Of a DNA stretch of 20,289 bases, positions 1 to 20,289 are shown piece after piece. Position 1 is the first letter of the stretch, and every line of letters begins with the position of its first letter. The stretch lies in IMG/VR virus record IMGVR_UViG_3300025598_000231, positions 1-20,289 of that record; one strand, 5' to 3'. A program made the position numbers and the translations under genes. Below the pieces are notes generated by a model that worked only from the letters and a program-made list of their open reading frames with translations, searched no databases and had not been told where the DNA came from. The DNA comes from a virus.

Positions 1-127
1 CACCCAAAATATCTCAACTAGCTATACAATTAGCACCAATAGAAATGCACTATCAGTTGGGCCTATCACAGTTGCTAGTGGACAAGCTGTCACAGTCCCA
101 TCAGGCAGTCGTTGGGTAATACTTTAA
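1..127 (+). CDS. Tail fibre protein, C-terminal end only (partial)
   Basis: The window opens inside a gene read from base 2 and ending at TAA 125-127, giving the last 41 residues. The tail contains SVGPITVASGQAVTVPSG followed by SRWVIL, a threonine/serine/valine-rich C-terminus of a type I recognise from phage tail fibres whose last strands form a small beta structure. No start or other domain is visible. It is followed after 9 nt by another fibre-like gene whose ribosome binding site (AAGGA at 126-130) overlaps this stop. The position at the head of a fibre array supports the fibre call, but with so little sequence it could be any beta-rich virion protein. Confidence 0.6.
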   Translation, partial: TQNISTSYTISTNRNALSVGPITVASGQAVTVPSGSRWVIL

Positions 128-136
128 GGATAAACA

Positions 137-667
137 ATGAGTTCTCTAGTTCTTTCAGGCGATACAAGCGGGGCAATTACCCTAGCTGCCCCAAGCGTAG
201 CTGGTACGAATACTGCTACCCTTCCTGCTGCTACTGGCACAGTAATGGTTAGCGGTAATATGCCAGCGTTTAGTGCTTATGCTAACACTAATCAATCTAT
301 TGGTGCATCAACATTTACTAAATTACAAATAAACTCAACAGCAACAACTGGCTTTGATACTAACTCAAATTACAGTATAAGCAATTATCGTTTTACTCCA
401 ACTGTTGCTGGATATTATCAAATAAATGGGGCGGTAGGATACACCGCAAATCCGGGTACTTATGGGATTGCAACTATTTATAAAAATAATTCAGAATTTT
501 TAAGAGGTACACAAGGAAGCAATACAAATTGTATAGTTTCAGGAATAATTTATTTTAATGGTTCTACCGATTATGTTGAATTATGGGCTTATGCATCTAA
601 TGCAAGCACAGCAAGCGGTGTTTCATATCTTACATATTTTAATGGCTCAATGGTAAGGGCAGCATGA
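137..667 (+). CDS. Tail fibre-like protein with C1q/TNF-like C-terminal domain
   Basis: This 176-residue protein has two parts. Residues 1-40 are a Ser/Thr/Ala/Gly-rich lead with the pattern LSGDTSGAITLAAP and TNTATLPAATGTV, typical of N-terminal stalk segments in phage fibres. Residues about 43-176 resemble a C1q/TNF-like jelly roll: AYANTNQSIGASTFTKLQIN, a FTPTVAGYYQINGAVGY strand pair, then alternating polar/aromatic strands ending FNGSMVRAA. Such domains trimerise and bind ligands, so a role in host surface binding at the virion tail is inferred. The start is backed by AAGGA six bases upstream. Its stop overlaps the next small gene (ATGATG at 664), so the two are probably translationally coupled. 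Receptor specificity cannot be told from sequence. Confidence 0.75.
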   Translation: MSSLVLSGDTSGAITLAAPSVAGTNTATLPAATGTVMVSGNMPAFSAYANTNQSIGASTFTKLQINSTATTGFDTNSNYSISNYRFTPTVAGYYQINGAVGYTANPGTYGIATIYKNNSEFLRGTQGSNTNCIVSGIIYFNGSTDYVELWAYASNASTASGVSYLTYFNGSMVRAA

Positions 668-834
668 TGTACGAAAAACTCATCAAACTTTATCCTGAAC
701 TTGCAAACTTTGACTTTGCTAGTGGTGTTATAACACTACAAAACGATTCAGACAATCGTGGTGACTATATAAAAGCGTGGAATCACCCTAATTTTCCTAT
801 GCCTACTCAGGAGCAATTAGATGCCATTAAGTAA
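664..834 (+). CDS. Small XkdW-like tail protein (56 aa)
   Basis: This short gene starts at ATG 664, overlapping the previous stop by 4 nt, and ends at TAA 832-834. The product begins MMYEKLIKLYPELANFDFAS and contains LQNDSDNRGDYIKAWNHPNF and a closing PMPTQEQLDAI. The order Y-P ... F-x-L-x-x-D ... Y-I-x-x-W ... P-x-P-T-x-x-x-L resembles the XkdW family of small phage tail-associated proteins, whose exact job is not established. It sits directly downstream of a fibre gene, where fibre-assembly helpers are usual, so a helper role is plausible but inferred. The AGGAG that serves the next gene lies inside its last codons (809-813). ATG 667 is an alternative start. Confidence 0.6.
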   Translation: MMYEKLIKLYPELANFDFASGVITLQNDSDNRGDYIKAWNHPNFPMPTQEQLDAIK

Positions 835-1312
835 AGAAATGCTTAATGAGTTGTTTGAATATTGTGATGGAGAAATCTATTACAAGGTAAGCCGTAGCCG
901 TAATAAAGCTGGTTCAAAAGCTGGAACTTATAGACCGCATGACAACGCTTACCAAGTAATTATTAATGGCAAACATTACCTTACTCATCGCATTGTATTT
1001 ATGATGCACCACGGTTATTTACCACAGTTTGTAGACCATATTGACCGCAATCGTTCTAATAACAAGATTGAAAACTTGCGTGAAGCTAGTCTTGAACAAA
1101 ATGCCCAAAATGCAAAAGTTCGCAAAGATGCTACAAGCGGTGTAAAAGGCGTTAGTTGGAGTAAAGTTGATAAAGTATGGCGTGTCCGTGTTCAAGCCAA
1201 CGGCAAGCGTAAAGATTTTGGTGGCTTTAAAGACCTTGAATTAGCGGAGTTAGTTGCTATGGAAGCACGAAATAAATATCATGGCGAGTTTGCCTATAAG
1301 GAGTACGCATAA
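821..1312 (+). CDS. Free-standing HNH homing endonuclease with AP2 domain
   Basis: The 163-residue product has an HNH core at about residues 50-90: HYLTHRIVFMMHHGYLP, then VDHIDRNRSNNKIENLREAS, with H56, D72-H73, D75, and the N-x-x-x-N-L-R pattern (N85-L86-R87). Residues about 105-157 form an AP2-type DNA-binding segment: SGVKGVSWSKVDKVWRVRVQ followed by KDFGGFKDLELAE. This HNH plus AP2 order is typical of mobile endonucleases in phages. The family nicks or cuts DNA at cognate sites to copy its own gene into related phages. The start at 821 has AGGAG seven bases upstream and overlaps the previous gene by 14 nt. An AAGGAG in its last codons (1298-1303) lies 8 nt before the next fibre start. 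No intron is evident, so it is free-standing. Confidence 0.9.
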   Translation: MPLSKEMLNELFEYCDGEIYYKVSRSRNKAGSKAGTYRPHDNAYQVIINGKHYLTHRIVFMMHHGYLPQFVDHIDRNRSNNKIENLREASLEQNAQNAKVRKDATSGVKGVSWSKVDKVWRVRVQANGKRKDFGGFKDLELAELVAMEARNKYHGEFAYKEYA

Positions 1313-2457
1313 TGGCTTACGGAACAGTCAATGCTGATATAATCGGAACAAGCGTAGCAGGAAGCAATTTAGGTGCTGGTAATGCAACCATAATGAAGAA
1401 CCGCATTATCAATGGTGCGATGGTTATTGACCAAAGAAACGCTGGTGCTAGTGTTACTCCTACTAATGGACAATATACTTTAGATAGATGGTATTTCTTT
1501 ATAACTCAAGCATCAAAATTTACAACTCAGCAAAATGCTGGTTCTGTTACCCCACCAATCGGATTTACTAACTATTTAGGTGTAACTTCATCTTCTGCTT
1601 ACTCTGTTGTCTCTGGTGATTTCTTTTCACTTCAACAAAAAATTGAAGGCTACAATGTTGCCGATTTAGGCTGGGGAACTGCTAATGCAAAAACTGTAAC
1701 ATTGTCATTTTGGGTGCAATCTAGTTTAACAGGCACTTTTGGCGGTTCTTTCGGAAATGGAGCTGCTAACAGGTCTTATGCATTCACTTATTCAATTCCT
1801 GTAGCAAATACATGGACTCAAATTTCAATTACTGTAGCTGGCGATACCACAGGAACTTGGGCTAAAGACAATACCGCTGGATTAGCAGTTTATTTTGGTC
1901 TTGGAGTAGGCTCAACATATAGCGGAACTGCTGGTTCATGGTCTGCAAACAATTATGTTTCAGCCACAGGAGCAACATCCGTAGTAGGAACAAACGGAGC
2001 AACCTTTTACATCACAGGCGTGCAATTAGAAGTAGGAAGTAGTGCTACTGGATTTGAGTATCGGATGTATAGCACCGAACTATATAATTGTTATCGTTAT
2101 TTCCAATATTTGCTTATTGCACAAACAAACAGTCAAGTAGGTGTTATTCGTGCATCAGGTTCAGGCGCAACGGCAAGTGAATTTAATATGCCGTTTACAT
2201 TTAGTCCAATGAGAACTGGGCCTACAGCAACATATGTATCAGGTTCACAAACAAGTTTTACCGCTTATTCATTAGCTGGTTCATCATCAACTTGGAATAT
2301 TAATCAAATTGTAAGCACATTTGATACAAACATTGGGCAACTTCAATATGATGGTGTTCGTATTCGTGGTGGTAATACTGGTTATAACGATGGACAACCT
2401 TATTTTGGTGTTGCAAATTCAGGATGGATTGCAGTTACTTTAAGTGCGGAGTTATAA
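1312..2457 (+). CDS. Tail fibre-like structural protein
   Basis: This 381-residue protein begins with a 25-residue Gly/Ala/Ser-rich lead. It then has the block MKNRIINGAMVIDQRNAG and GQYTLDRWYFF (residues about 28-63), a recurring block in phage proteins encoded near tail fibres. The rest is beta-rich and aromatic, with WVQSSLTGTFGGSFGNG and FYITGVQLEVGSSATGFEYR. The ITGVQLE-x-G-x-x-A-T-x-F-E phrase is a familiar end of carbohydrate-binding-like jelly rolls in phage proteins. A role in recognising surface sugars is inferred. Its ATG shares the last A of the endonuclease stop (TAATG), with AAGGAG 8 nt upstream. Another tail-associated small gene follows after 1 nt. Confidence 0.75.
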   Translation: MAYGTVNADIIGTSVAGSNLGAGNATIMKNRIINGAMVIDQRNAGASVTPTNGQYTLDRWYFFITQASKFTTQQNAGSVTPPIGFTNYLGVTSSSAYSVVSGDFFSLQQKIEGYNVADLGWGTANAKTVTLSFWVQSSLTGTFGGSFGNGAANRSYAFTYSIPVANTWTQISITVAGDTTGTWAKDNTAGLAVYFGLGVGSTYSGTAGSWSANNYVSATGATSVVGTNGATFYITGVQLEVGSSATGFEYRMYSTELYNCYRYFQYLLIAQTNSQVGVIRASGSGATASEFNMPFTFSPMRTGPTATYVSGSQTSFTAYSLAGSSSTWNINQIVSTFDTNIGQLQYDGVRIRGGNTGYNDGQPYFGVANSGWIAVTLSAEL

Positions 2458-2458
2458 A

Positions 2459-2605
2459 ATGTATCAATTAATGGAAGAAAAAACAATTAAACGCTTATCT
2501 GATGGTGCTTTTATTCCCATGCTTGAAGACAACACAGACTATCAAGCCTACCTAAAATGGGTAGCTGAAGGCGGTCAAGTTTTACCTGCGGATGAAAATG
2601 CTTAA
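2459..2605 (+). CDS. Small conserved phage protein behind a fibre gene (48 aa)
   Basis: This short gene runs from ATG 2459 to TAA 2603-2605. It encodes a 48-residue acidic protein beginning MYQLMEEKTIKRLSDGAFIP and continuing with NTDYQAYLKWVAEGGQVLPA. The pattern I-x-R-L-x-D-x-A-F-I-P ... N-x-D-Y-x-x-Y-L-x-W-x-x-E-G is one I recognise from small phage proteins encoded after tail fibres; its biochemical role is unknown to me. By position it matches the XkdW-like gene at 664-834 and may help fibre folding or attachment (inference). It lies 1 nt behind the fibre gene and its last 14 nt overlap the following homing endonuclease. It shows no sequence likeness to the first module's small gene beyond size and charge. 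Confidence 0.65.
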   Translation: MYQLMEEKTIKRLSDGAFIPMLEDNTDYQAYLKWVAEGGQVLPADENA

Positions 2606-3224
2606 TCAAAATTTTCCACCTACCGCCTTGCTAGTTATGCAACATAACATAACTGGCTTAAAGTACTTTTGCAAGACATCTTTGCTATACAGGATTTATA
2701 GTTACAAAGGTAGCGGAACTCGTTGGAATAATCATTTAAAGGTTCATGGCAAGGATATTACAGTCGGCGTAATGGGTGTATATACCGATAAGCAAAGATG
2801 CCTAAAAGCGGCTAAAAAGTTCTCTGCTGACCACGATATTGTCAATAGCGATGAATGGGCTAATTTGGTCGAGGAAACAGGCATGATGGGTGCAAGCATG
2901 AAAGGTGAACGCAATCCTTTCTATGGCAAAAAGCATACTCCTGAAATGACAGAGTATCTTCGCCAGAAAAAAATTGGTAAATCAGTTAATAAAGGTGCTT
3001 ATCGTAGCCCTGAAAATCGTGCCAAAATATCAGCATCGTTAAAAGGTCGTAAAAACCCAGCAGTTTCTAAAGCATTAACTGGTCGCAAATTATCAGAAGA
3101 AACAAAACAAAAATTATCTGAATCTCGTAAAGGATATACACACAGTATGGAAACTAGAGAAAAATTACGCCAGAAGGCAATAGTCCAATGGGCTAAACAA
3201 CCAGCCGATGAGGTGAAAGCATAA
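2592..3224 (+). CDS. Homing endonuclease, GIY-YIG-like with NUMOD3 motifs
   Basis: The 210-residue basic protein has an N-terminal region like phage Seg-type nucleases: TGLKYFCKTS then YSYKGSGTRWNNHLKVHGKD (residues about 22-55). This replaces the textbook GIY/YIG tripeptides with a diverged version. It is followed by NUMOD3-type DNA-binding motifs: GERNPFYGKKHTPEM (about 99-115), SPENRAKISASLKGRKNP (about 139-156), and GRKLSEETKQKLSESRKG (about 164-181). Such proteins cut DNA to spread their own gene. Starts at 2592 or 2598 are both possible, as neither has a strong ribosome binding site; 2592 gives a 14-nt overlap with the previous gene. Its 3' end carries GAGGTGA (3210-3216), well placed for the next fibre start. 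The catalytic residues of the diverged core are not certain, so activity is inferred. Confidence 0.85.
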   Translation: MKMLNQNFPPTALLVMQHNITGLKYFCKTSLLYRIYSYKGSGTRWNNHLKVHGKDITVGVMGVYTDKQRCLKAAKKFSADHDIVNSDEWANLVEETGMMGASMKGERNPFYGKKHTPEMTEYLRQKKIGKSVNKGAYRSPENRAKISASLKGRKNPAVSKALTGRKLSEETKQKLSESRKGYTHSMETREKLRQKAIVQWAKQPADEVKA

Positions 3225-3658
3225 TGACAACTATTATTAATGGCTCTAGCCCATCAATTACATTTAGTGATTCGACTACACAAACTACTGGAATACCTTC
3301 ACCAAGCACTTCAGGTAATGTACTTACTTCTAATGGTTCTGTTTGGACTTCTACAGCACCAGTAGCAAGTGGTTTAGGTGTTGGGCAAACATATTCAAAT
3401 GTTACAGGCAGTCGTTCTTCAGGAACAACATATACGAATTCAACTGGTAAACCAATTTTTGTAACTGTATTTATTGCAGATAATTCTAATCAAGGAAGTA
3501 ATCTTGTGTTTACAGTTGCTGGTTCAACAATATACCCGACTATGAATGGTTCAATAGGTTACAGAGTACAGTTTTCTATGATTGTTCCTGACAGCACAAC
3601 ATATTCAATTAGTTGGAATGGTAATGCAAACTTTGGCGGATGGTGGGAATTAAGATAA
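3224..3658 (+). CDS. Short tail fibre-like protein
   Basis: This 144-residue protein starts in a TAATG overlap with the endonuclease. The N-terminal part is a Ser/Thr-rich stalk (SPSITFSDSTTQTTGIP), followed by SGNVLTSNGSVWTSTAP, a linker often seen in phage fibre proteins. Residues about 50-144 are a compact beta domain ending WNGNANFGGWWELR. It lacks the C1q-like pattern of the first module and the NRIINGAMVIDQ block of the second, so the three fibres end in unrelated tips. A virion surface or host-binding role is inferred from composition and position. Its stop overlaps the next small gene by one base. Confidence 0.65.
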   Translation: MTTIINGSSPSITFSDSTTQTTGIPSPSTSGNVLTSNGSVWTSTAPVASGLGVGQTYSNVTGSRSSGTTYTNSTGKPIFVTVFIADNSNQGSNLVFTVAGSTIYPTMNGSIGYRVQFSMIVPDSTTYSISWNGNANFGGWWELR

Positions 3659-3906
3659 TGAAACTATACAAAGACAATCAAAATAACATTTACGGCTACG
3701 AACAAGATGGTTCACAAGACCATTTAATCGGTGAAAAAGTAGCTTTAACGCAATCAGAAATTGATGCAAGAGAAGCTAAATTTGCTGAAGATGAAGCAAA
3801 TAAAATTGCTATACAACAAGCACAAGCAACTGCAAAGGCTTCTGCACTAGCTAAACTAACAGCATTAGGACTAACACAAGCTGAAGTAACTGCCCTTATT
3901 GGATAA
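3658..3906 (+). CDS. Small tail-assembly-helper-like protein (82 aa)
   Basis: The likely start is ATG 3658, whose A is the last base of the fibre stop; an in-frame ATG at 3640 lies inside the fibre gene and would add six residues. The product begins MKLYKDNQNNIYGYEQDGSQ, then has a long charged helix (residues about 38-66, alternating Glu/Lys with Ala). It ends ALAKLTALGLTQAEVTALIG. The helix plus the KASALAKLTALGLT closing is a familiar ending in small proteins downstream of phage fibre genes, so a fibre assembly or chaperone function is inferred. This module has no endonuclease behind it and is followed directly by the lysis genes. Confidence 0.6.
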   Translation: MKLYKDNQNNIYGYEQDGSQDHLIGEKVALTQSEIDAREAKFAEDEANKIAIQQAQATAKASALAKLTALGLTQAEVTALIG

Positions 3907-3910
3907 TTAA

Positions 3911-4132
3911 ATGGATCACGATAACCAAATCGACATATTTAAGTATGGTCAACTTGTTGCAACGGTTGATTCGCTTGAGAAAAAGATCGATAAACTCGAA
4001 AAATCAGTTGAGCAACTTTGTGAGTTGGCAAATAAATCTAAAGGCGGTATGTGGGCAGGCATGATGGTAGTCTCTGCATTGAGCTCGTTTGTAGGCTTTA
4101 TAAGCCATTACTTTGCCACCAAGCCAAATTAA
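3911..4132 (+). CDS. XhlA-like small membrane protein, lysis-associated
   Basis: This 73-residue protein has a predicted coiled coil at about residues 16-41 (heptads in VDSLEKKIDKLEKSVEQL). A single hydrophobic segment follows at about 47-66 (MWAGMMVVSALSSFVGFISH), then a short basic tail. The order short head, coiled coil, C-terminal membrane anchor is that of the XhlA/haemolysin-type proteins that act beside holins. Here it opens the lysis cassette, followed without a gap by two more small membrane proteins. Its ribosome binding site is weak (GGA at 3901-3903), suggesting coupled translation. A role in anchoring or timing membrane damage is inferred from family resemblance. Confidence 0.7.
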   Translation: MDHDNQIDIFKYGQLVATVDSLEKKIDKLEKSVEQLCELANKSKGGMWAGMMVVSALSSFVGFISHYFATKPN

Positions 4133-4315
4133 ATGAACAATAACTACAGACAAGTTTTGATCTGGTTACTAGTTTATGTTGTAGGTGTGTCAGCAACCAT
4201 CGGATCAATCTGCATATTAGACTGGATACCATGTTTGTCCACAGGGGACACGCGGCAATGGACCATGCAACTTATCGCTGTAATAGTCGCCCTATTAGCA
4301 GGTAACCAAAAATGA
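4133..4315 (+). CDS. Small membrane protein, lysis region (holin candidate)
   Basis: The 60-residue product has one clear membrane helix (residues about 8-29, QVLIWLLVYVVGVSATIGSI) and a second, shorter hydrophobic segment (about 45-57, MQLIAVIVALLAG). A polar loop containing DWIP and STGDTRQW lies between them. I do not recognise a named family. Its ATG directly follows the preceding stop and its own stop overlaps the next ATG (ATGA at 4312), so it sits in a translationally coupled run of lysis genes. Size and topology fit a small holin, an antiholin or a holin partner; sequence alone does not decide which. Confidence 0.6.
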   Translation: MNNNYRQVLIWLLVYVVGVSATIGSICILDWIPCLSTGDTRQWTMQLIAVIVALLAGNQK

Positions 4316-4536
4316 AACTGTTTAAAGACATCCTTACCGAAGACGACAACCAAACATACTGCGCTGCACGGTTCTGTGCTGTGGTGTGCGTGTTGGGTTT
4401 TTTAGGTATTGCTTTGTTTGCTGCATTCCATGGCACCGAGATTGACTTGGAAAAATTAGGTATGGGCCTAGCTACCACATTAGGTGGATCTGGCGTGATG
4501 ATTGGTGCAAAAGCTGCAACTCAAAAGAGTGAATAA
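4312..4536 (+). CDS. Putative holin, two membrane segments
   Basis: This 74-residue protein has a polar start (MKLFKDILTEDDNQTYCAAR), a hydrophobic helix at about 21-39 (FCAVVCVLGFLGIALFAAF), a short loop with EIDLEKLG, and a glycine-rich second hydrophobic stretch at about 50-67. It ends in a charged tail (AKAATQKSE). Two helices, a short charged tail and a position directly before spanin and endolysin genes match class II-like phage holins, which open the inner membrane at lysis time. Which of the three small membrane proteins is the pore former is undecided; this is the best candidate from layout. The stop overlaps the next start (TAATG). Confidence 0.65.
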   Translation: MKLFKDILTEDDNQTYCAARFCAVVCVLGFLGIALFAAFHGTEIDLEKLGMGLATTLGGSGVMIGAKAATQKSE

Positions 4537-4946
4537 TGTTCCCTTTATCTATTTTAACTTATGCCAAAATTATTGCTGCTGCTGTTATTCTTTCTGCCGC
4601 TTGGTATAGCGGGTATCATTTTGAGTCTAGCCGCTTTGAAGCATATCGGTTGGAACAAACCCGACTTGTCCAAGAAACCGAACAAAGATACCAAGCAGAA
4701 GCAGACCAAATAAGGACTGAAAAAGATGCACAAATTCAAGCTATTAATACTCAGCTGCTCGATGCTGTTAGCGAGTTGCGTAAACGTCCCAGTCGCGCCC
4801 AAGACGACGCAAATGGACAAGACGGAACTGGGCGAGCCCTTTCTGCCGAGGATGCAGAATTTCTTGTTAGGGAAGCTGCCAGAGCAGACCTCCTCCGCTC
4901 CAGCCTCCAAGCCTGCTACGCCCAATACGACTCACTAAGTAAATAA
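4536..4946 (+). CDS. Rz-like i-spanin (inner-membrane spanin subunit)
   Basis: The 136-residue protein has an N-terminal membrane anchor (residues about 6-24, ILTYAKIIAAAVILSAAWY). A long periplasmic coiled coil follows (about 34-84, rich in Glu/Gln/Arg), then a conserved-looking end with RKRPSRAQ, LSAEDAEFLVREAARADLLR and CYAQYDSL. This is the Rz architecture: an inner-membrane subunit that pairs with an outer-membrane lipoprotein to fuse the two membranes in the last step of lysis of Gram-negative hosts. The o-spanin gene is read in the +1 frame inside it (4726-4938), the classic nested arrangement. It follows the holin candidate with a 1-nt overlap. Confidence 0.85.
   Translation: MFPLSILTYAKIIAAAVILSAAWYSGYHFESSRFEAYRLEQTRLVQETEQRYQAEADQIRTEKDAQIQAINTQLLDAVSELRKRPSRAQDDANGQDGTGRALSAEDAEFLVREAARADLLRSSLQACYAQYDSLSK
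4726..4938 (+). CDS. Rz1-like o-spanin lipoprotein, nested inside Rz
   Basis: This 70-residue ORF lies entirely within the Rz gene in another frame. It begins MHKFKLLILSCSMLLASC, a basic start, hydrophobic core and LASC lipobox, with C18 as the lipidated cysteine. The mature part is short and carries prolines and Ser/Thr (APASKPATPNTTH at the end), as expected for Rz1. TAAGGA at 4711-4716 gives it its own ribosome binding site 9 nt upstream. The family role is to sit in the outer membrane and bind the C-terminal end of the i-spanin. Signal, lipobox, proline content, nesting and own ribosome binding site together make a chance ORF unlikely. Confidence 0.85.
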   Translation: MHKFKLLILSCSMLLASCVNVPVAPKTTQMDKTELGEPFLPRMQNFLLGKLPEQTSSAPASKPATPNTTH

Positions 4947-4958
4947 GTGACCCCCCAA

Positions 4959-4979
4959 TTTACGCTATACTAGCGTAAA
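4959..4979. promoter_or_regulatory. Perfect 9-bp inverted repeat upstream of the lysozyme gene
   Basis: Arms TTTACGCTA (4959-4967) and TAGCGTAAA (4971-4979) are exact reverse complements around a TAC centre. The sequence TATACT (4966-4971) across the centre resembles a sigma-70 -10 box, but no convincing -35 box lies upstream. There is no U-run, so it is not a standard terminator. The AGGAG of the lysozyme gene lies at 4983-4987, three bases after the second arm. It may be an operator, or an RNA hairpin that affects lysozyme translation; neither is shown. Confidence 0.5.
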
Positions 4980-4992
4980 GAAAGGAGCCAAA

Positions 4993-5511
4993 ATGAAAAA
5001 AACTTTAGTAGTACTAATGTGGTGTTTAGGCATTATTGCAGCCTTTCACTTCACAAACCGATATACCCAGATTGAAGAAAACCTCATGGCAATCGCAAAA
5101 TCCACACTAGACTTAATTACCAAAGAAGAAGGTTCACGCAACAAGGCGTACCAAGACTCCAAGGGTCTTTGGACGATTGGTGTTGGCCACCTCATCAAAA
5201 CCGATGAAGAGTATCTGCTGACAGCCACCCTGACAGATGATCAGGTAGAAGAGCTGCTTAGGAAGGATTTAAAGTGGTGTAGCGAGGCCGTAGAGACCTC
5301 GGTAAAGGTACCCCTCCAGCAACACCAATTCGACGCCCTGTACAGCCTCTGTTTCAATATTGGAGGCACTAATTTTTCTAACTCTACCGTAGTTAAGAAA
5401 ATCAATCAAAATGACATGCAGGGCGCAGCGGATGCGATCCTAAACTGGAATAAACCAGAAGTACTTATCAACCGCCGCAAACGCGAACGGGCATTGTTTT
5501 TAGGGGCGTAA
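4993..5511 (+). CDS. Endolysin, GH24 (T4-type) lysozyme with signal-anchor-like N-terminus
   Basis: This 172-residue muramidase cuts the glycan strand of peptidoglycan between MurNAc and GlcNAc. The catalytic set E-8-D-5-T is intact: E46, D55 and T61 within EEGSRNKAYQDSKGLWTIGV. The C-terminal part has QHQFDALYSLCFNIGG and the closing RRKRERALFL typical of GH24 phage lysozymes. Residues 1-20 (MKK, then TLVVLMWCLGIIAAFHF) form a weakly hydrophobic signal with no clear cleavage site, as in SAR endolysins that leave the membrane at lysis. Three cysteines (C11, C96, C120) are present, C11 inside the anchor. AGGAG five bases upstream supports this start; ATG 5086 (Met32) would give a soluble lysozyme without the anchor. 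A terminator overlaps the stop. Confidence 0.9.
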   Translation: MKKTLVVLMWCLGIIAAFHFTNRYTQIEENLMAIAKSTLDLITKEEGSRNKAYQDSKGLWTIGVGHLIKTDEEYLLTATLTDDQVEELLRKDLKWCSEAVETSVKVPLQQHQFDALYSLCFNIGGTNFSNSTVVKKINQNDMQGAADAILNWNKPEVLINRRKRERALFLGA

Positions 5512-5582: not shown

Positions 5583-6581
5583 ATGGACGGCTTTAAGACA
5601 TTACCCAAGATGCAGTGCTTCAAAGAAGGCGGCTCTGTAGCAGTTAAAAACATTATGAAAAAAGGCGGCATCGCTAAAAAAGGCGTGCCTGCTGTTAAAG
5701 AAAAAGATGAAGGTCCTAAGCGCCAAATGGTTGCTGGCCTAAAAGGCACAACGCCTGATGTTGCTGATGAAACCACAACTACCATGAAAAAAGGCGGCCG
5801 TGCTAAGAAAGCCATGGGTACCGTTCGCAAATATAAAGACGGCGGAGCAGTAGGTGTATACGGCGCTAAGAAAAAATCTGGCGACTACGACAGCATCGAA
5901 AAAGCCAAAGATATCAAGCCAGCTAAAGCTGCAGCTCCATCTAAGGCAGCTGTTAAGCCAGCCATGAAGGGCAGCGACGTTGCTAAAGAAAAAAGCAAAC
6001 CCGCTGGCTCATCAAAAGCTAAGAAAGTAAGCGACAACGCTAAAATGGCTGATGCTAAGTCTGGCGCTAAAGGCGGCCCAAACAAGTACAAAAAAGGCGG
6101 TGAAGTAAAAAAGATGGCTGCCGGTAGCCAAACAGCTCCATTAGCTACCGGCCCAGATTCCATCGCACGCGCCCATCAATTAGCATTAATGCAAGAGATG
6201 CGTAGATTGCCTCCTGCAATGCAATTACAGTTGTTGCAACAACAGCAACGAATTGGCGGCACAGGTGATATGAACGCGTTGGCTAATCAAATGAATCCAC
6301 AACCACAACAGCAACCAATGCCTACTAACATGGGCACCATGGGTCAAAAGCGTGGTGGTAAAGTTAAAAAGCATGCAGCTGGTGGCAAAATTGGAAAAAT
6401 TGCAGCAGGTTTATTTCCGGGTGCATTGTTTGGGCTTCCAACAGCTGCCGCAATATACAGCAATGAAAAAGCTAAAGATGCAAAAGTAGAAGAAGAAACC
6501 GCTGCTAAAGATAAAGAAGCAGAAACTAAATCTGCTCCTGTTGCTAAAAAACGTGGCGGTAAAGCTACAAAGGTTTGCTAA
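5583..6581 (+). CDS. Lysine-rich repeat protein with eight K-x-G-G-type motifs, function unknown
   Basis: This 332-residue protein has about 58 lysines (17%, hand count) and no fold I can name. The double glycine recurs in a fixed setting: KEGGSV (G16-17), KKGGIA (28-29), KKGGRA (71-72), KDGGAV (87-88), KKGGEV (172-173), KRGGKV (258-259), AAGGKI (267-268) and KRGGKA (325-326), usually followed by K-K within four residues. Residues 90-170 are an Ala/Lys/Ser-rich linker, about 194-245 are Gln/Met/Pro-rich, and 273-292 are hydrophobic ([20 protein letters not shown]). It sits first in a block leading into neck and tail genes. A DNA- or capsid-binding virion protein is possible, but this is inference. 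GAGGA six bases upstream supports the start. Confidence 0.7.
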
Positions 6582-6582
6582 T

Positions 6583-6750
6583 ATGCCAATCGAATCTAAA
6601 CAACAGCAAAAAGCCATGTACGCTGCTGCCGCAGGCAAAAGCAACATTGGCATTCCTAAGAAGGTAGGCAAGGAGTTTATCAAAGCTGGTAAAGCTAAAG
6701 CCAACCTGCCACAGAAGGTAATGAAGAAAGCAGCTGGAAGAGGACGCTAA
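6583..6750 (+). CDS. Small DUF3008-like protein (55 aa)
   Basis: The likely start is ATG 6583, one base after the preceding stop; a longer reading from 6541 would run through the end of the upstream gene and loses the conserved opening. The product begins [20 protein letters not shown], then has [15 protein letters not shown] and a basic end ([11 protein letters not shown]). The order M-P-x-x-S-K-x-Q-Q-x-x-M ... I-P-x-x-V-G-K-E-F resembles small phage and bacterial proteins of the DUF3008 type, for which no role is known to me. It lies between two lysine-rich GG-motif proteins and its stop overlaps the next start (TAATG), so the three are probably made together. Confidence 0.65.
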
Positions 6751-7220
6751 TGAAAGATTTTAAACAAAACGTCAAAATGATGTGCGCTGGCGGTCACTAC
6801 AAAGAAGGTGGCGACGTTAAGCAAGACAAGCAAATGATCAAAAAAGCATTCAAGATGCACGATGATCAGCTGCATGAGAAAAAGCACACCGATTTGTCTA
6901 AGTTAAAAACTGGCGGCAAAGTTAAAAAAATGGCTGAAGGTAGATTGGTTGATGACATAGATTTTAAAAATGCCAAACCAGTTAAAATGCCATCAGGTGT
7001 TGGAAGAACACCTACGATGAATATTGACGGTAAAGACGTTGAAGTAAGACCGGTTCAGATGCCAACACCTAGACTTAGTGATTTACCAAAAACTGCAAAT
7101 CGTCCTGATGATTTAGTTTATAGATATGCTCCCGGTCAAGGACCAAGCCTATCTGATTGGAAGCGCGGCGCTGCAAGCGGCATGAAAAAGGGCGGTAAAA
7201 CTAAACGCGGGAAAAAATAA
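6750..7220 (+). CDS. Second lysine-rich GG-motif protein, function unknown
   Basis: This 156-residue basic protein shares its N-terminal layout with the product of 5583-6581. Here [20 protein letters not shown] leads into GDV; there [12 protein letters not shown] leads into FKEGGSV. Further GG motifs are KTGGKVKK (G55-56) and MKKGGKTKRGKK at the C-terminus (G148-149). Residues about 65-140 are less basic and contain several prolines, with no family I recognise. Its ribosome binding site (AGAGGA, about 6739-6744) is good. The stop TAA is followed by one codon and then the GTG start of the connector gene in the same frame. The GG-motif proteins may be paralogous at their N-termini; function is not known. 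Confidence 0.65.
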   Translation: MKDFKQNVKMMCAGGHYKEGGDVKQDKQMIKKAFKMHDDQLHEKKHTDLSKLKTGGKVKKMAEGRLVDDIDFKNAKPVKMPSGVGRTPTMNIDGKDVEVRPVQMPTPRLSDLPKTANRPDDLVYRYAPGQGPSLSDWKRGAASGMKKGGKTKRGKK

Positions 7221-7223
7221 GCC

Positions 7224-8297
7224 GTGGCCTATTCTAATACATACAACCAGACTACGGTCGACGTTGATCAGATGATTTCCTACGCCTTTCGTGGTGCAGG
7301 AAAGCAAGCTGAAGAAATCACACCTGAGTACGTACAAGCCGCTAAGCAGGCGCTGTTCTACATTTTGCAGAACTCGTCTAACCGCGGCGTTAACCTATGG
7401 TTGTTAGAGAATATCATCCTTGGTGCGCAAAGTAATCAGCAGATCCTTACTATGCCAATGGGCACGATTGACGTGCGCGAGGCAAATTGGATTTACATCC
7501 AGACACCACAAATTGAGACAGCACTGCCTGTTGACAATTCAACTTCACCAAACGTGTTTGATCAAAACTTAAATGGTTTTGGTACAACTACGGTTAGTGA
7601 AAACTGGTTTGGTGCTCAATATCAAAATCAAACTAGCGTGTATTACGTTGGTATCAATGCCTATGCACCAAACTACGGTAGCGTAACATACACTGGTTTG
7701 GTATATGAAACAAGTAACGATGGTATTACATGGGAACAGCAAGCTGCGTTTGATACGCCACTAACCTTGCAAGACCGTACATGGTCTTACATTCCAATTA
7801 ATCTGACCATTCCGTATTACTTCCATCGTATTCGTTCTACCACATCGACGCCATTTTCATGCCGTCAAATTGTTTTTGCACAATCACAACAAGTTATTCC
7901 ATTAGCACGCTTAAACCGTGATGACTACTGGAACTTACCAAACAAACAGTTTCCATCTGTACGTTCTTTGCAATACTGGTTTAACCGTCAGATTGATCCA
8001 GAGATGTATATCTGGCCTGTACCATCCAACGACTTCCAAGTATTCCAGCTCATTATTGAAAAGCAGATGATGGACGTTGGCTCGTTGACTAATCAGTTAT
8101 ACCTGCCCAACCGTTGGATCCCCTACATTCAAGCTGCGCTCACCCATGAGTTGGCGATGCAGTTGCCCGGTGTTGATATGGGGCGCGTTGCTTACTTGGA
8201 AAAATTAGCACTTAATCTACGTACGCAAGCCGAAGAAGAAGATCGTGATAAGTCACCAATCTACTTCCAACCTAACTACAGCTACTATACACGATGA
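7224..8297 (+). CDS. P22 gp4-like head-to-tail connector protein with inserted beta domain
   Basis: The 357-residue product opens with an all-helical pattern typical of gp4-like tail accessory factors: DVDQMISYAFRGAGKQAEEI, then a helix with AAKQALFYILQNSSNRGVNL and W59. These proteins form a ring beneath the portal and hold packaged DNA in the head. P22 gp4 is about 166 residues; the extra length here lies mostly at about 105-222, a beta-rich insert with TGLVYETSNDGITWEQQAAF and WSYIPINLTIPYYFHRIRS, resembling a discoidin-like sandwich. The helical part resumes with IPYIQAALTHELAMQLPGVD and YLEKLALNLRTQAEEEDRDK. The start is GTG at 7224; no ATG occurs in frame until 7272. The ribosome binding site is poor. 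The stop overlaps the next start by 4 nt. Confidence 0.8.
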   Translation: MAYSNTYNQTTVDVDQMISYAFRGAGKQAEEITPEYVQAAKQALFYILQNSSNRGVNLWLLENIILGAQSNQQILTMPMGTIDVREANWIYIQTPQIETALPVDNSTSPNVFDQNLNGFGTTTVSENWFGAQYQNQTSVYYVGINAYAPNYGSVTYTGLVYETSNDGITWEQQAAFDTPLTLQDRTWSYIPINLTIPYYFHRIRSTTSTPFSCRQIVFAQSQQVIPLARLNRDDYWNLPNKQFPSVRSLQYWFNRQIDPEMYIWPVPSNDFQVFQLIIEKQMMDVGSLTNQLYLPNRWIPYIQAALTHELAMQLPGVDMGRVAYLEKLALNLRTQAEEEDRDKSPIYFQPNYSYYTR

Positions 8298-15344: not shown

Positions 15345-17108
15345 ATGGCAGCTAGTACATCCAGCGGATTAAGTTTAGGTTTTAACGCAAAAGGCGAGGC
15401 TGAGCCAAAAGGCGCTCTTCCTTTAGATGCAACAGAAACTAAAAAGCTCTTAACAAACTTGCAACAAATGGTTGACGAGCGTCAAAGCCCATTAAATCAA
15501 TTAATAAGCGGGCTTAAAGACGCTAGTGCTTGGGGTTCTGGCGGACTTGAAGGTCCAACAGCTGCTTTGGCTATTCGTGGCAAACAAAAAGACGAAGAAG
15601 AGCAACAAGATTATAATAGACGCCAAACATTGGCGGCTATGAAAGCTCAGTTAGCTAATCAGCAACAAGTTATGAATTACAATTTAGGTATTTCTGGAGC
15701 AACAACTGCTGCCGGACAAACACCAACTATTAGCGGAGGTACAACACAAACTTCCGCTGGTAAAGCTTCTCCTGTTCAACAAAAAATTTCTAGTTTACCC
15801 CCAGCGTTACAAGCTGTTGCATACGGTTATCTTAATAAACCTGTGCCAGATTTTGACGCTATTGATAGAATGGTTGAAGAATACGAAACTAAAGGTAAGC
15901 CAGAGCTTGCTAAAAATGTTGCCTTTATTAATAGTTTACCGGAAGGCCCAGAAAAAGAAATTCTTAAACGTCAAGCGTTTGAAAAAGGCTACGGTGTATT
16001 TGAAACAGTTGATTCACAAGGATTTAAAAAACCGTATTCAATTCTTGGAGGAGGAGCACCTTCAAGTCAAGCTGCCCCGTCCACAACCGGCACACAAGGA
16101 ACAGCGGCTCAAGTTGCTTCTTCGTTGGGTGTTCCGATTATTAGCGGTGACCGCGATTGGGATAAACAGTATAACTTATATTTAAATAGCAAAAAACCTG
16201 GTTACAGCGGACCTCCCGTAGCTTTCCCTGGTTACAGCCAACACGAAACTGGCAACGCAATTGACGTGGGTCCAATAACTGCAGATCAGCGTCAAAAATT
16301 AATTGATGCTGGATTTACACAACCAGTTCCAAATGATAAAAATCATTGGGAGTTAACCAAACCAGGTGCTAAAACAACAGAACCATCGTACACTGGCGGA
16401 TTGCCAACAGGTAGTACTGCAGCTGCTGAAACATTTACTAAAAACGTTCAAGCCAACAATGAAGATTTTAATAAAAACACAGGTGGTAAGCTTGGCGAAC
16501 AGATTTTAAATGATAAAGATAGAATGCGTTATTTAGATGACGCACTTAAAATTGTAAATGATCCTAAATCAGATATTGGTCCGGGTTCTTCTTTACGTCA
16601 AGCTATTACACAAGCAAAAGGCTACATAGGTGATTTAGATCCTAAAGAATTGGATGACCTTACACAAAAAGGAATTGTAGACCAAGCGCTTAAAAAGCAA
16701 GTAGTTGGCAATGTTAGGGCTGCTTTAGGTGGACAATTGTCTGACCGTGACGTTGCAATTTTTGAAAAAACAATTGGTAACATTAATGATCCAAAAGAGT
16801 TCTTAAAAAGAACATTGCAGTTTGAAAAAGCATCTATTGTTGCAAGAAACAACTTAAATACATTTATTAACCAAGCTAATGTTTTAGATAAAAAATCTGC
16901 ATTTGCTGATTATATGAAACCTGGTGGTCAGTATGAACAAGACCTTACCAAAAATTTAGGTGTAAGCGGTTCTCCAGCAACAGCAGCGCCCTCAGGCAAA
17001 CCATTGCCAAAAGGTGCTCCTGAAGGCGCACGTTGGGGCGTAGGCCAACACGCCAATAAAGTATATGTAATACAAGACGGTAAAACTTATGAATGGACTC
17101 CGGACTAA
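15345..17108 (+). CDS. Internal virion protein with M15 peptidoglycan peptidase domain (VanY/Ply500-type)
   Basis: The 587-residue protein has a flexible, Gln-rich N-terminal region (1-145), a helical part (about 145-225), then a peptidase domain at about 253-340. The zinc and catalytic set of M15 peptidases is complete: SQHETGNAIDVG carries H300 and D307 (S-x-H-x-x-G-x-A-x-D), and DKNHWEL carries D331 and H334. The spacings (7 and 3 residues) equal those of Ply500 (H80, D87, D130, H133). Such enzymes cut peptidoglycan peptide stems. A helical C-terminal half follows (about 360-560) and a short end WGVGQHANKVYVIQDGKTYE. Within the virion operon, a role in local wall digestion during DNA entry is inferred, distinct from the lysozyme at 4993. 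AAAGGT precedes the start. Confidence 0.8.
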   Translation: MAASTSSGLSLGFNAKGEAEPKGALPLDATETKKLLTNLQQMVDERQSPLNQLISGLKDASAWGSGGLEGPTAALAIRGKQKDEEEQQDYNRRQTLAAMKAQLANQQQVMNYNLGISGATTAAGQTPTISGGTTQTSAGKASPVQQKISSLPPALQAVAYGYLNKPVPDFDAIDRMVEEYETKGKPELAKNVAFINSLPEGPEKEILKRQAFEKGYGVFETVDSQGFKKPYSILGGGAPSSQAAPSTTGTQGTAAQVASSLGVPIISGDRDWDKQYNLYLNSKKPGYSGPPVAFPGYSQHETGNAIDVGPITADQRQKLIDAGFTQPVPNDKNHWELTKPGAKTTEPSYTGGLPTGSTAAAETFTKNVQANNEDFNKNTGGKLGEQILNDKDRMRYLDDALKIVNDPKSDIGPGSSLRQAITQAKGYIGDLDPKELDDLTQKGIVDQALKKQVVGNVRAALGGQLSDRDVAIFEKTIGNINDPKEFLKRTLQFEKASIVARNNLNTFINQANVLDKKSAFADYMKPGGQYEQDLTKNLGVSGSPATAAPSGKPLPKGAPEGARWGVGQHANKVYVIQDGKTYEWTPD

Positions 17109-17111
17109 AAC

Positions 17112-19397
17112 ATGGCCCTAAAAGAAGTCGATTACGATCCCTTTAAAGGTAAATTAAAAGAAGTCGATTACGACCCTTTTAAAGAAGATAAATCTTTAGC
17201 AAAAACATTTGAGCCAGCTACTGCTACAGTAATGCGAGCTCTTATTGGTTTAGCTAAACCTCCTGCAGCTATGGCTGAAATGGTTGGTTGGGATAAGCCG
17301 GCCAAAGATTTGTTAAAAATGGACGAAGAGTATAAGAAAAAGGCTGGTATAGCTGGCACAATTTCTAGTACGCTAGGCGATGTTGCTGGTTTTATGTTAC
17401 CAGCTAAAGAGTTTGAAATTGGCTATCAAGGTTTAAAAACAGTTCCTAAGTTTGCTAAATTAGCCAAAGCCATGGAAGGTAATTTTGCTAATTTGCCAAG
17501 TTGGGCTAAAGCATCCGCTACAGGTGCCGGAGCTTCACTATTTACCCCTACAGGTAAATCAATTGCAGAGCCAGGTTATTTTAAAGAAAAAGCAGAACAA
17601 GCTGGTACGGGCGCCATTTTAGGCCCTGCTGCTGAAAAAATAGTTGGTGGTGCGTCACGTGTTCTTTCACCACAATTACAACGTTTAAAAGACCTTGCAG
17701 CACAAGGTATTGATGTAAAACGTTTTCTTAGCGGTTCAAAAGGCGTCCCTGGATTTGAAGATACGTCTGGTGCCACTTTGGGTCAAACTTTAGGCGGTTC
17801 GGCGCAGGCCCTTGAAAGAATTTTGCGGGTATTGCCTGGCGCTGGAATTAAAGGTCAAGCTGAAAGTTCTAATAGAAACTTATTAGAAATGCTTCGTTTA
17901 AGAAAACAAGCATTAAGCAATCAAAGAGACAGAGATAATGCTGCGTTAAAAGCCGTGTACGATAGTCGCCAGCACCCATTGCAGCAATTAACTGATCAGT
18001 TAAAAGCTGATAGTGCAAATAGACATCATAAAAGTGTTTCTAAATTGCACGAAAATTTAAACAATGAACAAGATCAATATCATTTAGATGTTTTAAATAA
18101 AGTATTATCGCATTTAAAAGATGAAAAAGGTCAGCCTTTAAAATTGCCAAAAGATGTTGTTGGTAGCAATGCTATTAAGCACATTCAAGAAAGACTGAGC
18201 GAAACTTATGGTAAAGCAACTGGTTTATTAGGTGACCCAGAGCTTGGTGGTTCTATTAAAATTACACCAGAGTTGGAAACTAAGTTAAAACAGGTTGTTG
18301 CTGATAATCCAGACGTACCAGGTTTAGATGCTGAAGTTAATAAACTCATTAATTTAGGCGGTGACACCAAGTTAATTTCTCCAGTTCAATGGCAAGCCCA
18401 ATTTCAAAAACTTGGTGATCGAGCCTACAATTTGCTTACCAAGGGTAACGCAGATGATGTAGAGTTAGCTGGCGCCCTAAAAGACATTAAAGGCCATTGG
18501 TTAGACCACGTTGGTGATACTGAAGGTGGTCAGTTAATGAAAGACGCTAACAGAGCTTATAGCCAGCTGCAAGGTCCCCAACGCGCTGTAGGATTGAAAT
18601 CATCAATGTTGGATGAAGGCAGATTTACGCCTGAACAATTAGTTTCTGGTTTAAAGCCAGAAATGTCTATTAAACGTTACACTGCAGCAAATGACGAACA
18701 GTTACAAGATGCTTTAGCAGCTGCTAAACTTTTAGACGCAAAAAGACAAAAAGTAGAAGAACAAGCAAACAAATGGAAAACTCAGTTAGAAGAGCACCAT
18801 GGTAAATTGGATGCTAAAGAAAAAGAAGCGCTTGACAAAATAAAACTAAATCAAAAAGAAGAACTTGACAACGCCTACGAAAATCAAAATTCTAATGTTG
18901 AAACACTTGTAAACAAAATTCAATCTGAAAGCGTTCCAAGTAGTTTATTAAATAAAGCCGGATACGAATTAGCGCTTGGACCAACGCTTAGCGCTGGCTT
19001 GGGTGGATTAAGTTTTCTTGGCGCTCACCAAATGGGTTTACCTTTAAACTACCAAATAGCTGCTCCAATAGCTGCGGTAGCGGCCCCAGCTTTGGCTACT
19101 CGTTTTGGTTATACTGGTGCAACAGATCTATTAAAAGATTTGGCAACAGAACGACCAGAGTTTGTTAAACAAGCTGGTAAAATGTTACAAGAAAACTTGC
19201 CAACTGCAACTGGTGCGCTTGTTAATGCTATGGAGCCAACCGCGTACCGTCAAATTGGCGGAGGTAAAAACGTTCAAGTTTATGCGCCACAAGGAATGGA
19301 AAACGCACAGCCAATTCCATTTCCAACTGTTCCGCAAGATGATCAAAGCACTCCTATTGTTCCAAAACGCGCGGGTGGTCTAGTTCACTTGCGGTAA
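17112..19397 (+). CDS. Large internal virion / DNA ejection-type protein
   Basis: The 761-residue product starts with a doubled peptide, LKEVDYDPFK at residues 3-12 and 15-24. Residues 30-180 are Ala/Gly/Lys-rich with amphipathic stretches. About 185-345 are helical with SNRNLLEMLRLRKQALSNQR, and about 535-605 form a strong Lys/Glu/Gln coiled coil. Two hydrophobic segments follow (618-639 and 647-667). It ends PKRAGGLVHLR, another GG motif. Helical bulk, late membrane-like segments and its place at the end of the virion operon fit proteins ejected to form a channel across the envelope, as in P22 and T7; no lytic motif was found. The stop overlaps the convergent polymerase gene by 13 nt. Confidence 0.65.
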   Translation: MALKEVDYDPFKGKLKEVDYDPFKEDKSLAKTFEPATATVMRALIGLAKPPAAMAEMVGWDKPAKDLLKMDEEYKKKAGIAGTISSTLGDVAGFMLPAKEFEIGYQGLKTVPKFAKLAKAMEGNFANLPSWAKASATGAGASLFTPTGKSIAEPGYFKEKAEQAGTGAILGPAAEKIVGGASRVLSPQLQRLKDLAAQGIDVKRFLSGSKGVPGFEDTSGATLGQTLGGSAQALERILRVLPGAGIKGQAESSNRNLLEMLRLRKQALSNQRDRDNAALKAVYDSRQHPLQQLTDQLKADSANRHHKSVSKLHENLNNEQDQYHLDVLNKVLSHLKDEKGQPLKLPKDVVGSNAIKHIQERLSETYGKATGLLGDPELGGSIKITPELETKLKQVVADNPDVPGLDAEVNKLINLGGDTKLISPVQWQAQFQKLGDRAYNLLTKGNADDVELAGALKDIKGHWLDHVGDTEGGQLMKDANRAYSQLQGPQRAVGLKSSMLDEGRFTPEQLVSGLKPEMSIKRYTAANDEQLQDALAAAKLLDAKRQKVEEQANKWKTQLEEHHGKLDAKEKEALDKIKLNQKEELDNAYENQNSNVETLVNKIQSESVPSSLLNKAGYELALGPTLSAGLGGLSFLGAHQMGLPLNYQIAAPIAAVAAPALATRFGYTGATDLLKDLATERPEFVKQAGKMLQENLPTATGALVNAMEPTAYRQIGGGKNVQVYAPQGMENAQPIPFPTVPQDDQSTPIVPKRAGGLVHLR
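17118..17183 (+). repeat. Direct repeat coding for a doubled EVDYDPF peptide
   Basis: Copies at 17118-17147 and 17154-17183 (period 36) encode LKEVDYDPFK twice. The DNA copies differ at three positions, all silent, while the six-base spacer codes Gly-Lys. It lies at the very N-terminus of the large internal virion-type protein. Confidence 0.85.
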
Positions 19398-20289
19398 CGT
19401 TTACCGTACCAACCCTCAGCAGCAAGAGGAAAATCGGGAGCCCATACTGGAGGTGTAGTCATTATTTTAACTACATCATTCAACGCGGACTCCCCGTTTT
19501 GTTCTTCCACTAAGAGGAGTACCTCATCGTGAATGCTATTGATTACCAGAAAACCATTCGCTTCAAGATTAAGCATAGCCACGGCAAGAAAGTCCCGGGC
19601 AGTTCCTTGAACAGCGGATTGAAATATCGAGCTGCCAATAAGAGCGTTGCGGCTCCATTGCCTGCTGTAAGTGTTTTGGGAATGGACGACAACACCCATT
19701 TTCTTACTACCCCACGGAGTGGTGAGCAGGTCGAGCTCTGGCCTTTGCCAGCAGATAAGTCTGCCTGATGGTAAGCGCATCCATAGCGCCTTGCCATCAC
19801 ACTTGATTACAATTTTGCTACCTGCCGCAAAAGGATTGCCGGGGTTCTTAACCGCGTCAATCGCGGCTTTCTCGCAAGCAGCCCAAAGATCTTTTACCTT
19901 GGCATACGACATACGGTAATTGTCTACGGCATTCTTGGCCTGATTTTCTGTCAGGCTTACTCCCATCCCTTCAGCGTATTTGACAAGTCCCTTAGCCCCT
20001 TGTCCGAACATTGCTCCAAGAACTGCCGACTTGGAAACCTGCCGTTGGTCTTTCGTAACCTCATCATAAGGTACGTTATATAAAGACTGCGACGCAAAGA
20101 CTTTATACTCATCTAATCCCTTTCTGAATAGTTCTACTTTGTCCGTTTGGTTCGCAAGCCATACGCCGACTCTATTTTCGATGGATGAAAAATCGACGTC
20201 CACGAAGGTTTGTCCATCTGGCGCACTAATAGCGGAACGCACCAAGCTGGATAGTTCGTCCATCGTACCAACACCTTGCCCAAAAACTT
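19385..20289 (-). CDS. polA: DNA polymerase I family A, C-terminal polymerase domain (partial at window edge)
   Basis: The minus-strand frame stays open to the right window edge, so the 5' part (fingers, any exonuclease) is missing; the Met at 20263 is internal. Numbering from that Met, motif A is FVDVDFSSIENRVGVWLA (D24, E29, R31), motif B is RQVSKSAVLGAMFG (R74, K78), then SAVQGTARDF, and motif C is INSIHDEVLLLV (H245-D246-E247). It ends in AAEGWYGKRYRK, a complete C-terminus. The enzyme copies phage DNA. Against E. coli Pol I, the residue at position 762 is Leu and that at 766 is Phe rather than Tyr. It converges on the virion operon and is the first gene of an opposite-strand replication module. 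Its stop (TGA, 19387-19385) lies within the end of the plus-strand gene. Confidence 0.95.
   Translation of the reverse strand, partial: VFGQGVGTMDELSSLVRSAISAPDGQTFVDVDFSSIENRVGVWLANQTDKVELFRKGLDEYKVFASQSLYNVPYDEVTKDQRQVSKSAVLGAMFGQGAKGLVKYAEGMGVSLTENQAKNAVDNYRMSYAKVKDLWAACEKAAIDAVKNPGNPFAAGSKIVIKCDGKALWMRLPSGRLICWQRPELDLLTTPWGSKKMGVVVHSQNTYSRQWSRNALIGSSIFQSAVQGTARDFLAVAMLNLEANGFLVINSIHDEVLLLVEEQNGESALNDVVKIMTTPPVWAPDFPLAAEGWYGKRYRK
19392..19406. repeat. Short perfect inverted repeat at the convergent gene junction
   Basis: CGGTAA (19392-19397) and TTACCG (19401-19406) are exact inverted copies around CGT. The plus-strand stop TAA is the end of the first arm, and the repeat lies within the last codons of the polymerase gene. 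There is no U-run on either side, so at most it is a weak bidirectional pause site; it may be chance. Confidence 0.3.

Follow-up and report, generated by a model that had tools for sequence, protein, structure and literature searches.

Boundaries between tail-fibre modules of a freshwater phage group as probable hotspots of free-standing homing endonucleases

The window analysed here is a complete virus record of 20,289 bases from IMG/VR (IMGVR_UViG_3300025598_000231), which near its start carries an array of tail-fibre genes and small helper genes interrupted by two unrelated endonuclease genes (fibre–helper–HNH/AP2, fibre–helper–GIY-YIG/NUMOD3, fibre–helper). Comparison with related contigs makes it likely, in our view, that free-standing homing endonucleases aimed at the ends of the flanking genes insert preferentially between a helper and the fibre that follows it (intronless homing), making this boundary a hotspot in a group of freshwater phages. 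An earlier note on this DNA, made from the letters alone, had described three fibre–helper modules and proposed that two selfish genes had landed in equivalent places. The open reading frames (ORFs) sit where that note placed them, and the third module does consist of a fibre and a helper, although it lacks an endonuclease and is followed by lysis genes instead of another fibre. The features of the array, with coordinates in the window, are as follows.

137–667, plus strand: fibre 1, 176 amino acids (phrog_15750, E = 1.2e-5; many contigs have homologues that precede an XkdW helper)
664–834, plus strand: helper 1, XkdW family, 56 amino acids (PF09636, E = 4.7e-7; weak match to tail fiber assembly phrog_8746)
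821–1312, plus strand: HNH_3 plus AP2-like endonuclease, slot 1 (PF13392, 8.8e-16; phrog_99, 2e-63; I-HmuI 1u3e, E = 2e-5 by profile)
1298–1303, plus strand: AAGGAG, ribosome binding site (RBS) of fibre 2 within the final HNH codons, read from the sequence
1312–2457, plus strand: fibre 2, 381 amino acids (phrog_4492 tail fiber, 2.9e-48)
1396–1422, plus strand: conserved site in fibre 2 coding for KNRIINGAM, the putative target of canonical GIY-YIG/NUMOD3 enzymes judging from relatives; intact and not recoded in the window
2459–2605, plus strand: helper 2, 48 amino acids (phrog_34019, 3.5e-9; sequence alignment)
2585–2595, plus strand: CCTGCGGATGA, left copy of an imperfect 11-nucleotide (nt) direct repeat flanking the GIY insertion
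2592–3224, plus strand: diverged GIY-YIG plus NUMOD3 endonuclease, slot 2 (PF07460, 4.2e-17; alternative start at 2598)
3201–3224, plus strand: captured 3′ tail of helper 2 (CCAGCCGATGAGGTGAAAGCATAA, PADEVKA and stop), starting with the right repeat copy and aligned to the empty alleles L075 and L006
3224–3658, plus strand: fibre 3, 144 amino acids (phrog_18834, 3.4e-14)
3658–3906, plus strand: helper 3, 82 amino acids (phrog_33019, 0.0035; a family of homologues)
3830–3906, plus strand: 3′ end of helper 3, the common breakpoint at which high identity to contigs with other arrays begins

For comparison we fetched ~560 loci (designated by L numbers). The queries were a conserved structural gene further downstream (7224–8297), the two endonucleases, fibre 2 and helper 1, and loci fetched later were found with endonuclease alignments. 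An assembly artefact is an unlikely source of the array, as two contigs from other metagenomes match it: L069 is 99.98% identical over 6.2 kilobases (kb) and L072 is identical from about position 950 to 3900. Slot occupancy was counted in 145 non-redundant loci, all of them retrieved with a fibre or a helper as query and none with an endonuclease; the counts are approximate because they derive from our own gene calls and family hidden Markov models. Endonucleases occupied 22 of 124 junctions between a helper and a following fibre, 15 of 187 between another gene and a fibre, 5 of 604 between two other genes and none of the 245 between a fibre and a following helper, with three of the occupied loci being contigs close to the window or to relatives of its HNH gene. 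Any junction before a fibre was occupied in 38 of 326 cases, compared with 13 of 1,051 elsewhere (Fisher P = 7e-15).

At least six endonuclease families occur in the slot, their types including HNH_3/AP2, diverged GIY-YIG, canonical GIY-YIG/NUMOD3, zinc-ribbon HNH (phrog_374), EndoVII-like, GIY with an I-HmuI NUMOD, and NUMOD3 with an HNH_5-like domain. The order of the window is reversed in L217, which has a window-like GIY gene in slot 1 and an HNH gene in slot 2; another GIY-YIG gene, its third endonuclease, precedes fibre 1. L234 also carries three endonucleases. The fibre–helper–fibre junctions lacking an endonuclease that the earlier note had proposed looking for occur often and show the same TAATG/ATGA coupling (for example, L165, L168, L170, L012 and L007), so that helper–fibre junctions occur both empty and occupied, a present/absent polymorphism at a fixed place between conserved genes. 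Together, the enrichment, the number of families, the reversed array and the many empty junctions strongly support the proposal of a repeated landing place for unrelated selfish genes. As a separate observation, the arrays of L217, L234 and L443 hold two or three different endonucleases, mostly directly before a fibre. The overlaps of 14 nt with the helper and 1 nt with the next fibre, and the RBSs at 1298–1303 and 3210–3216, had been described correctly for the window. As a shared signature, however, an overlap of exactly 14 nt was rejected: among relatives of the slot endonucleases the overlap with the helper is 1, 4, 8, 11, 14, 17 or 20 nt, and the window GIY gene may itself start at an alternative ATG at 2598, which would reduce its overlap to 8 nt.

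Both window genes encode a homing-type nuclease domain with DNA-binding repeats and are complete, separate ORFs outside any intron. A self-splicing intron origin was rejected, as positions 1–5000 of the window matched neither a group I intron nor any other Rfam entry at E ≤ 1. For the slot 1 gene, previously read as HNH plus AP2, the HNH_3 domain scores far above its curated Pfam cut-off (57.7 versus 24.8 bits), whereas the AP2 assignment at the C-terminus falls below the gathering cut-off (22.3 versus 33.3 bits) and represents weak similarity only. For the slot 2 gene, the GIY-YIG part has no Pfam match but its predicted fold does match: the AlphaFold2 model has a predicted local distance difference test score >92 over most of residues 11–90, and the top PDB match in Foldseek is the I-TevI catalytic domain (probability 1.00, target-normalised template modelling score 0.65–0.67). 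With the NUMOD3 match (E = 4.2e-17), this bears out the description as GIY-YIG-like plus NUMOD3. Its motif reads YFC in place of YIG, with the second tyrosine kept and the first-motif tyrosine absent, and intermediates form a series in the alignment. Among named phages, only distant relatives of this protein were found.

Insertions have left scars on the fibre side of the slot. Truncated fibre 5′ ends lie directly before the endonuclease in 17 distinct contigs, compared with 0 of 354 control genes preceding a fibre. These remnants end mostly between −4 and about +5 codons from the NRIING motif of a (K/R)NRIINGAM site, with the outliers L426, L416 and L443 being partly alignment effects, and most abut the upstream gene with a normal overlap. 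The order in L250, for example, is helper, MAYGTVNADVIGTSVAGSNLGAGN and stop, GIY gene and complete fibre MAYGQVNADVIGTSVSGSNLGAGNASLLKNRLING; in L076, L265 and L436 the start of the endonuclease is fused to a fibre 5′ end. Three candidates were rejected, as L211 and L300 are GTG-started fibres and the gap in L181 is a GTG-started endonuclease. Two further observations concern such remnants: L436:2453–3160 encodes a chimeric protein with ~23 codons of a fibre 5′ end and a GIY endonuclease in frame behind it, and L123, L128 and L129 (about 3479–3547 in L123) have a decapitation scar in a neck-protein-like gene, consisting of an MAVPNSREQFKYYLLRRLGAPVI remnant, a GIY-YIG gene and the complete gene.

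The same site is recoded in fibres that directly follow a canonical GIY-YIG gene, where it reads KNKIINGAC, KSRIINGAM, KNRIINGSM, KNRLINGAC, KNRIINGDC and others. Over the 24 target nt, these fibres have 9.1 mismatches (n = 10), compared with 3.8 in 47 empties matched for flank divergence (P = 1e-5), and the adjacent 33 nt in the same fibres are not more divergent. A later set of loci, retrieved with endonuclease alignments, gave the same result (8.4 mismatches, n = 42, P = 2e-11). The canonical motif is kept in 10 of 49 fibres after GIY-YIG genes and in 96 of 124 empties (P = 5e-12), and when each fibre was paired with its nearest empty relative, 32 discordant pairs agreed with the prediction and 1 went against it. 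The recodings take many forms, spread over about 30 sequence clusters. Although some share ancestry, this variety argues for repeated selection rather than a single linked lineage. Judged by sequence, canonical GIY-YIG relatives thus appear to have the altered donor target expected of homing elements. A reading in which fibres beside window-like GIY genes are never recoded was rejected: a search pattern demanding K or R before NRIING had been misleading, and a relaxed pattern found a VNRIING/YNRIING subset in the new loci that is recoded.

Scars on the helper side take the form of captured tails. The right copy of the 11-nt repeat flanking the window GIY gene lies at 3201–3211, and the C-terminus of that gene (...KQPADEVKA and stop) contains a 22-nt suffix matching the helper-2 tails of the empty alleles L006 and L075 with a score of 17; a score of 15 is reached by 0.1% of 716 control genes. 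The captured segment at 3201–3224 includes the RBS GAGGTGA (3210–3216) and the 1-nt stop/start overlap, so that both signals belong to the original helper 3′ end. For the GIY gene, captured helper ends therefore explain the matching junctions pointed out earlier better than coincidence does. Tail scores ≥12 occur in 22% of 37 endonucleases located after a helper versus 1.3% of the 716 controls (P = 6e-9). The HNH gene of L200 ends in NHPTLAKPTDEELA and stop, a 36-nt helper-1 tail with 35/36 identical positions, zinc-ribbon HNH genes end in helper-2 tails of 24–27 nt (...TPLPAENT, ...TPLPAEETL and ...TPLPADEVKAS, each before the stop) and the new loci add window-type cases (L325, L429, L409 and L415). 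Outside the helper context, the C-terminus of an HNH gene at L263:2502–2939 (INDLKARIETLEAK) is the tail of the upstream coiled-coil gene in L274.

The simplest model for these patterns is intronless homing with a target near the point of insertion. Each endonuclease would recognise a stretch of DNA kept constant by the protein it encodes, namely the conserved terminal part of one of the genes at the boundary. For canonical GIY-YIG/NUMOD3 enzymes and some window-like GIYs, the target would be the (K/R)NRIINGAM-coding site, about 24–35 codons into the fibre. The helper-2 3′ end (PADE...) is the probable target of the window GIY and of the zinc-ribbon HNH family. During coinfection, the enzyme would cut an empty junction, and resection followed by repair from the donor would copy the endonuclease in. 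One broken end may sometimes be joined without homology, so that the endonuclease is preceded by what is left of a fibre 5′ end or carries a helper 3′ tail at its own end. Translational coupling from helper to fibre (RBS and stop/start overlap) would be preserved either way, so that insertion would cost little. The donor would escape its own enzyme because its linked fibre is recoded at the target, and repair could take neighbouring fibre sequence along because the cut adjoins hypervariable fibres.

Several observations weigh against this interpretation. The 3′ tail of the window HNH gene matches helpers with a score of only 7.5, which is not significant; for this gene, tail capture is a candidate explanation at most. 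Recoding at the NRIING site is not clear in fibres that follow HNH genes (P = 0.06), NRIINGAM is not supported as an HNH target, and window fibre 2, directly after the HNH gene, keeps the site intact. The HNH family is found mostly elsewhere, with 62 of 71 contexts in HNH-query loci having no recognised fibre or helper neighbour. The activity of the window GIY is uncertain, because its active site departs from the canonical one, and in the new loci fibres with a motif beginning (K/R)N next to window-type GIY genes are not recoded. Lastly, the sampled fibres are related, so that the P values assume more independence than there is; the safeguards are the paired test and the variety of recodings.

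An alternative to capture is that helper-like tails arose by convergence on an RBS and a stop/start overlap, which we regard as very unlikely. Short ends containing a Shine–Dalgarno (SD) sequence do resemble each other among helpers and other genes, and most HNH and canonical GIY tails match over only ~11 nt, but control genes with the same overlap rarely reach the lengths seen in L200, the zinc-ribbon HNHs and the window GIY, and the coding sequence common to helpers and endonuclease tails extends past the SD (PTLAKPTDEELA, TPLPAENT). It is also unlikely, though less so, that tolerance alone accounts for the distribution, with insertion taking place anywhere and being seen at helper–fibre boundaries since it is harmless there. 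Inserts do leave both neighbours intact with RBS and overlap kept, and embedding in operons is usual for free-standing endonucleases of T4 (PMC2988022). Yet junctions from fibre to helper are equally tight and coupled and are never occupied, and those between two other genes rarely so; selection against splitting a fibre from its helper could explain part of the former. Scars that stop at one site, and recoding confined to that site, likewise speak against tolerance.

A further possibility, which we find doubtful, is that the endonucleases form part of a fibre-shuffling cassette kept by selection at the level of the phage, in which competitors that are cut take up the donor's fibre module and change or widen their host range. 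The endonucleases do adjoin hypervariable fibres, and the arrays turn over: L003–L005, L007–L009 and L070 are 92–97% identical to the window from nt 3830–3832 on but have different fibre arrays without these endonucleases there, so related phages do not always carry the same modules with both genes. L006, at 87% identity in the breakpoint region and 94–96% further on, also has a different array. In each of these contigs the breakpoint falls within the 3′ end of helper 3, which supports module exchange at helper ends. L072, identical to the window over 3 kb, has a different fibre-1 module immediately before the HNH gene. Cutting by the endonucleases might plausibly drive the swapping of fibres or a change of host range. 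However, most junctions and many variable arrays (L005, L006, L008 and L012) lack an endonuclease, and the array breakpoint adjoins lysis genes rather than an occupied slot. The HNH gene also moves without its fibre: the window and L073 are 96–100% identical over about 800–1262 (the last helper codons and the HNH gene) and 50–70% identical on both flanks, and the fibre downstream of the shared island in L073 is unrelated to that of the window. Because this island sits between such diverged flanks, the HNH gene can move without either neighbouring gene.

Elsewhere in the window, 4536–4946 probably encodes an inner-membrane spanin, and an outer lipoprotein spanin (MHKFKLLILSCSMLLASC...) probably lies within it in another frame at 4726–4938. 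Three successive lysine/glycine-rich proteins with repeated KKGG/KxGG motifs (5583–6581, 6583–6750 and 6750–7220) lie between the lysis and neck genes. In a host search, no relative of the 7224–8297 protein was found in the genome contigs searched, and among named phages only distant Caulobacter phages and one uncultured record matched it. The virion region includes a 587-residue protein with a VanY peptidase domain (15345–17108; PF02557, E = 3.3e-6). The C-terminal part of a family A DNA polymerase lies on the minus strand at 19385–20263, convergent with the structural operon and beginning 26 nt from the record end.

The closest known parallels are the free-standing segA–G and mobA–E genes of T4, which likewise include HNH and GIY-YIG genes located between conserved phage genes, vary in presence and carry embedded expression signals for the downstream gene (PMC2988022). 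Cleavage sites in T4 are hundreds to thousands of base pairs (bp) from the endonuclease gene (PMC2988022), whereas the putative targets here are no more than about 100 bp away, the same kind of slot serves several families and gene-end scars are left; the term ‘tail fiber’ is absent from the text of that review. F-CphI of cyanophage S-PM2 is also free-standing, adjoins its target gene and has a donor protected by an altered target (PMC6083498), but there an intron blocks the target (collaborative homing), in contrast to the point recoding without an intron seen here. In Skunavirus, the available portion of one study describes HNH genes at several recurrent locations, with subfamily tied to location, and polymorphism near the sites proposed as homing footprints; those sites are mostly in the early region, and that portion describes no fibre-module slot, scars or tail capture (PMC12724721). 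Replacement of the target on homing is established (PMC12724721, PMC6083498). I-TevI resembles the window GIY in its catalytic fold and, weakly, in its DNA-binding domain, which the NUMOD3 region matches, and I-HmuI matches the window HNH by profile; both are intron-encoded, unlike the window genes. In the literature searched, homing endonucleases beside fibre loci are mentioned only in passing, for T5-like phages in the BASEL paper (PMC8594841), and in the open-access literature we found no description of a multi-family helper–fibre slot, gene-end scars or capture, or recoding of a fibre target.

If helper–fibre boundaries are indeed hotspots of intronless homing, a selfish element would be tied to the exact boundaries of host-range gene exchange, with concrete targets. 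It is possible, though less likely than not, that fibre-module boundaries are maintained cutting sites, where rival families target conserved gene ends on either side of each hypervariable fibre, each coinfection with an unprotected phage forces repair across a fibre boundary and selfish genes constantly drive the reassortment of tail fibres. Tail capture illustrates how a gene can enter an operon with tight translational coupling and leave the neighbouring genes translated, and scars combined with recoded sites may allow the cleavage sites of uncharacterised homing endonucleases to be read from sequence alone. One prediction is that window fibre 2, with its intact KNRIINGAM site at 1396–1422, should be sensitive to the canonical GIY-YIG enzymes of related phages.

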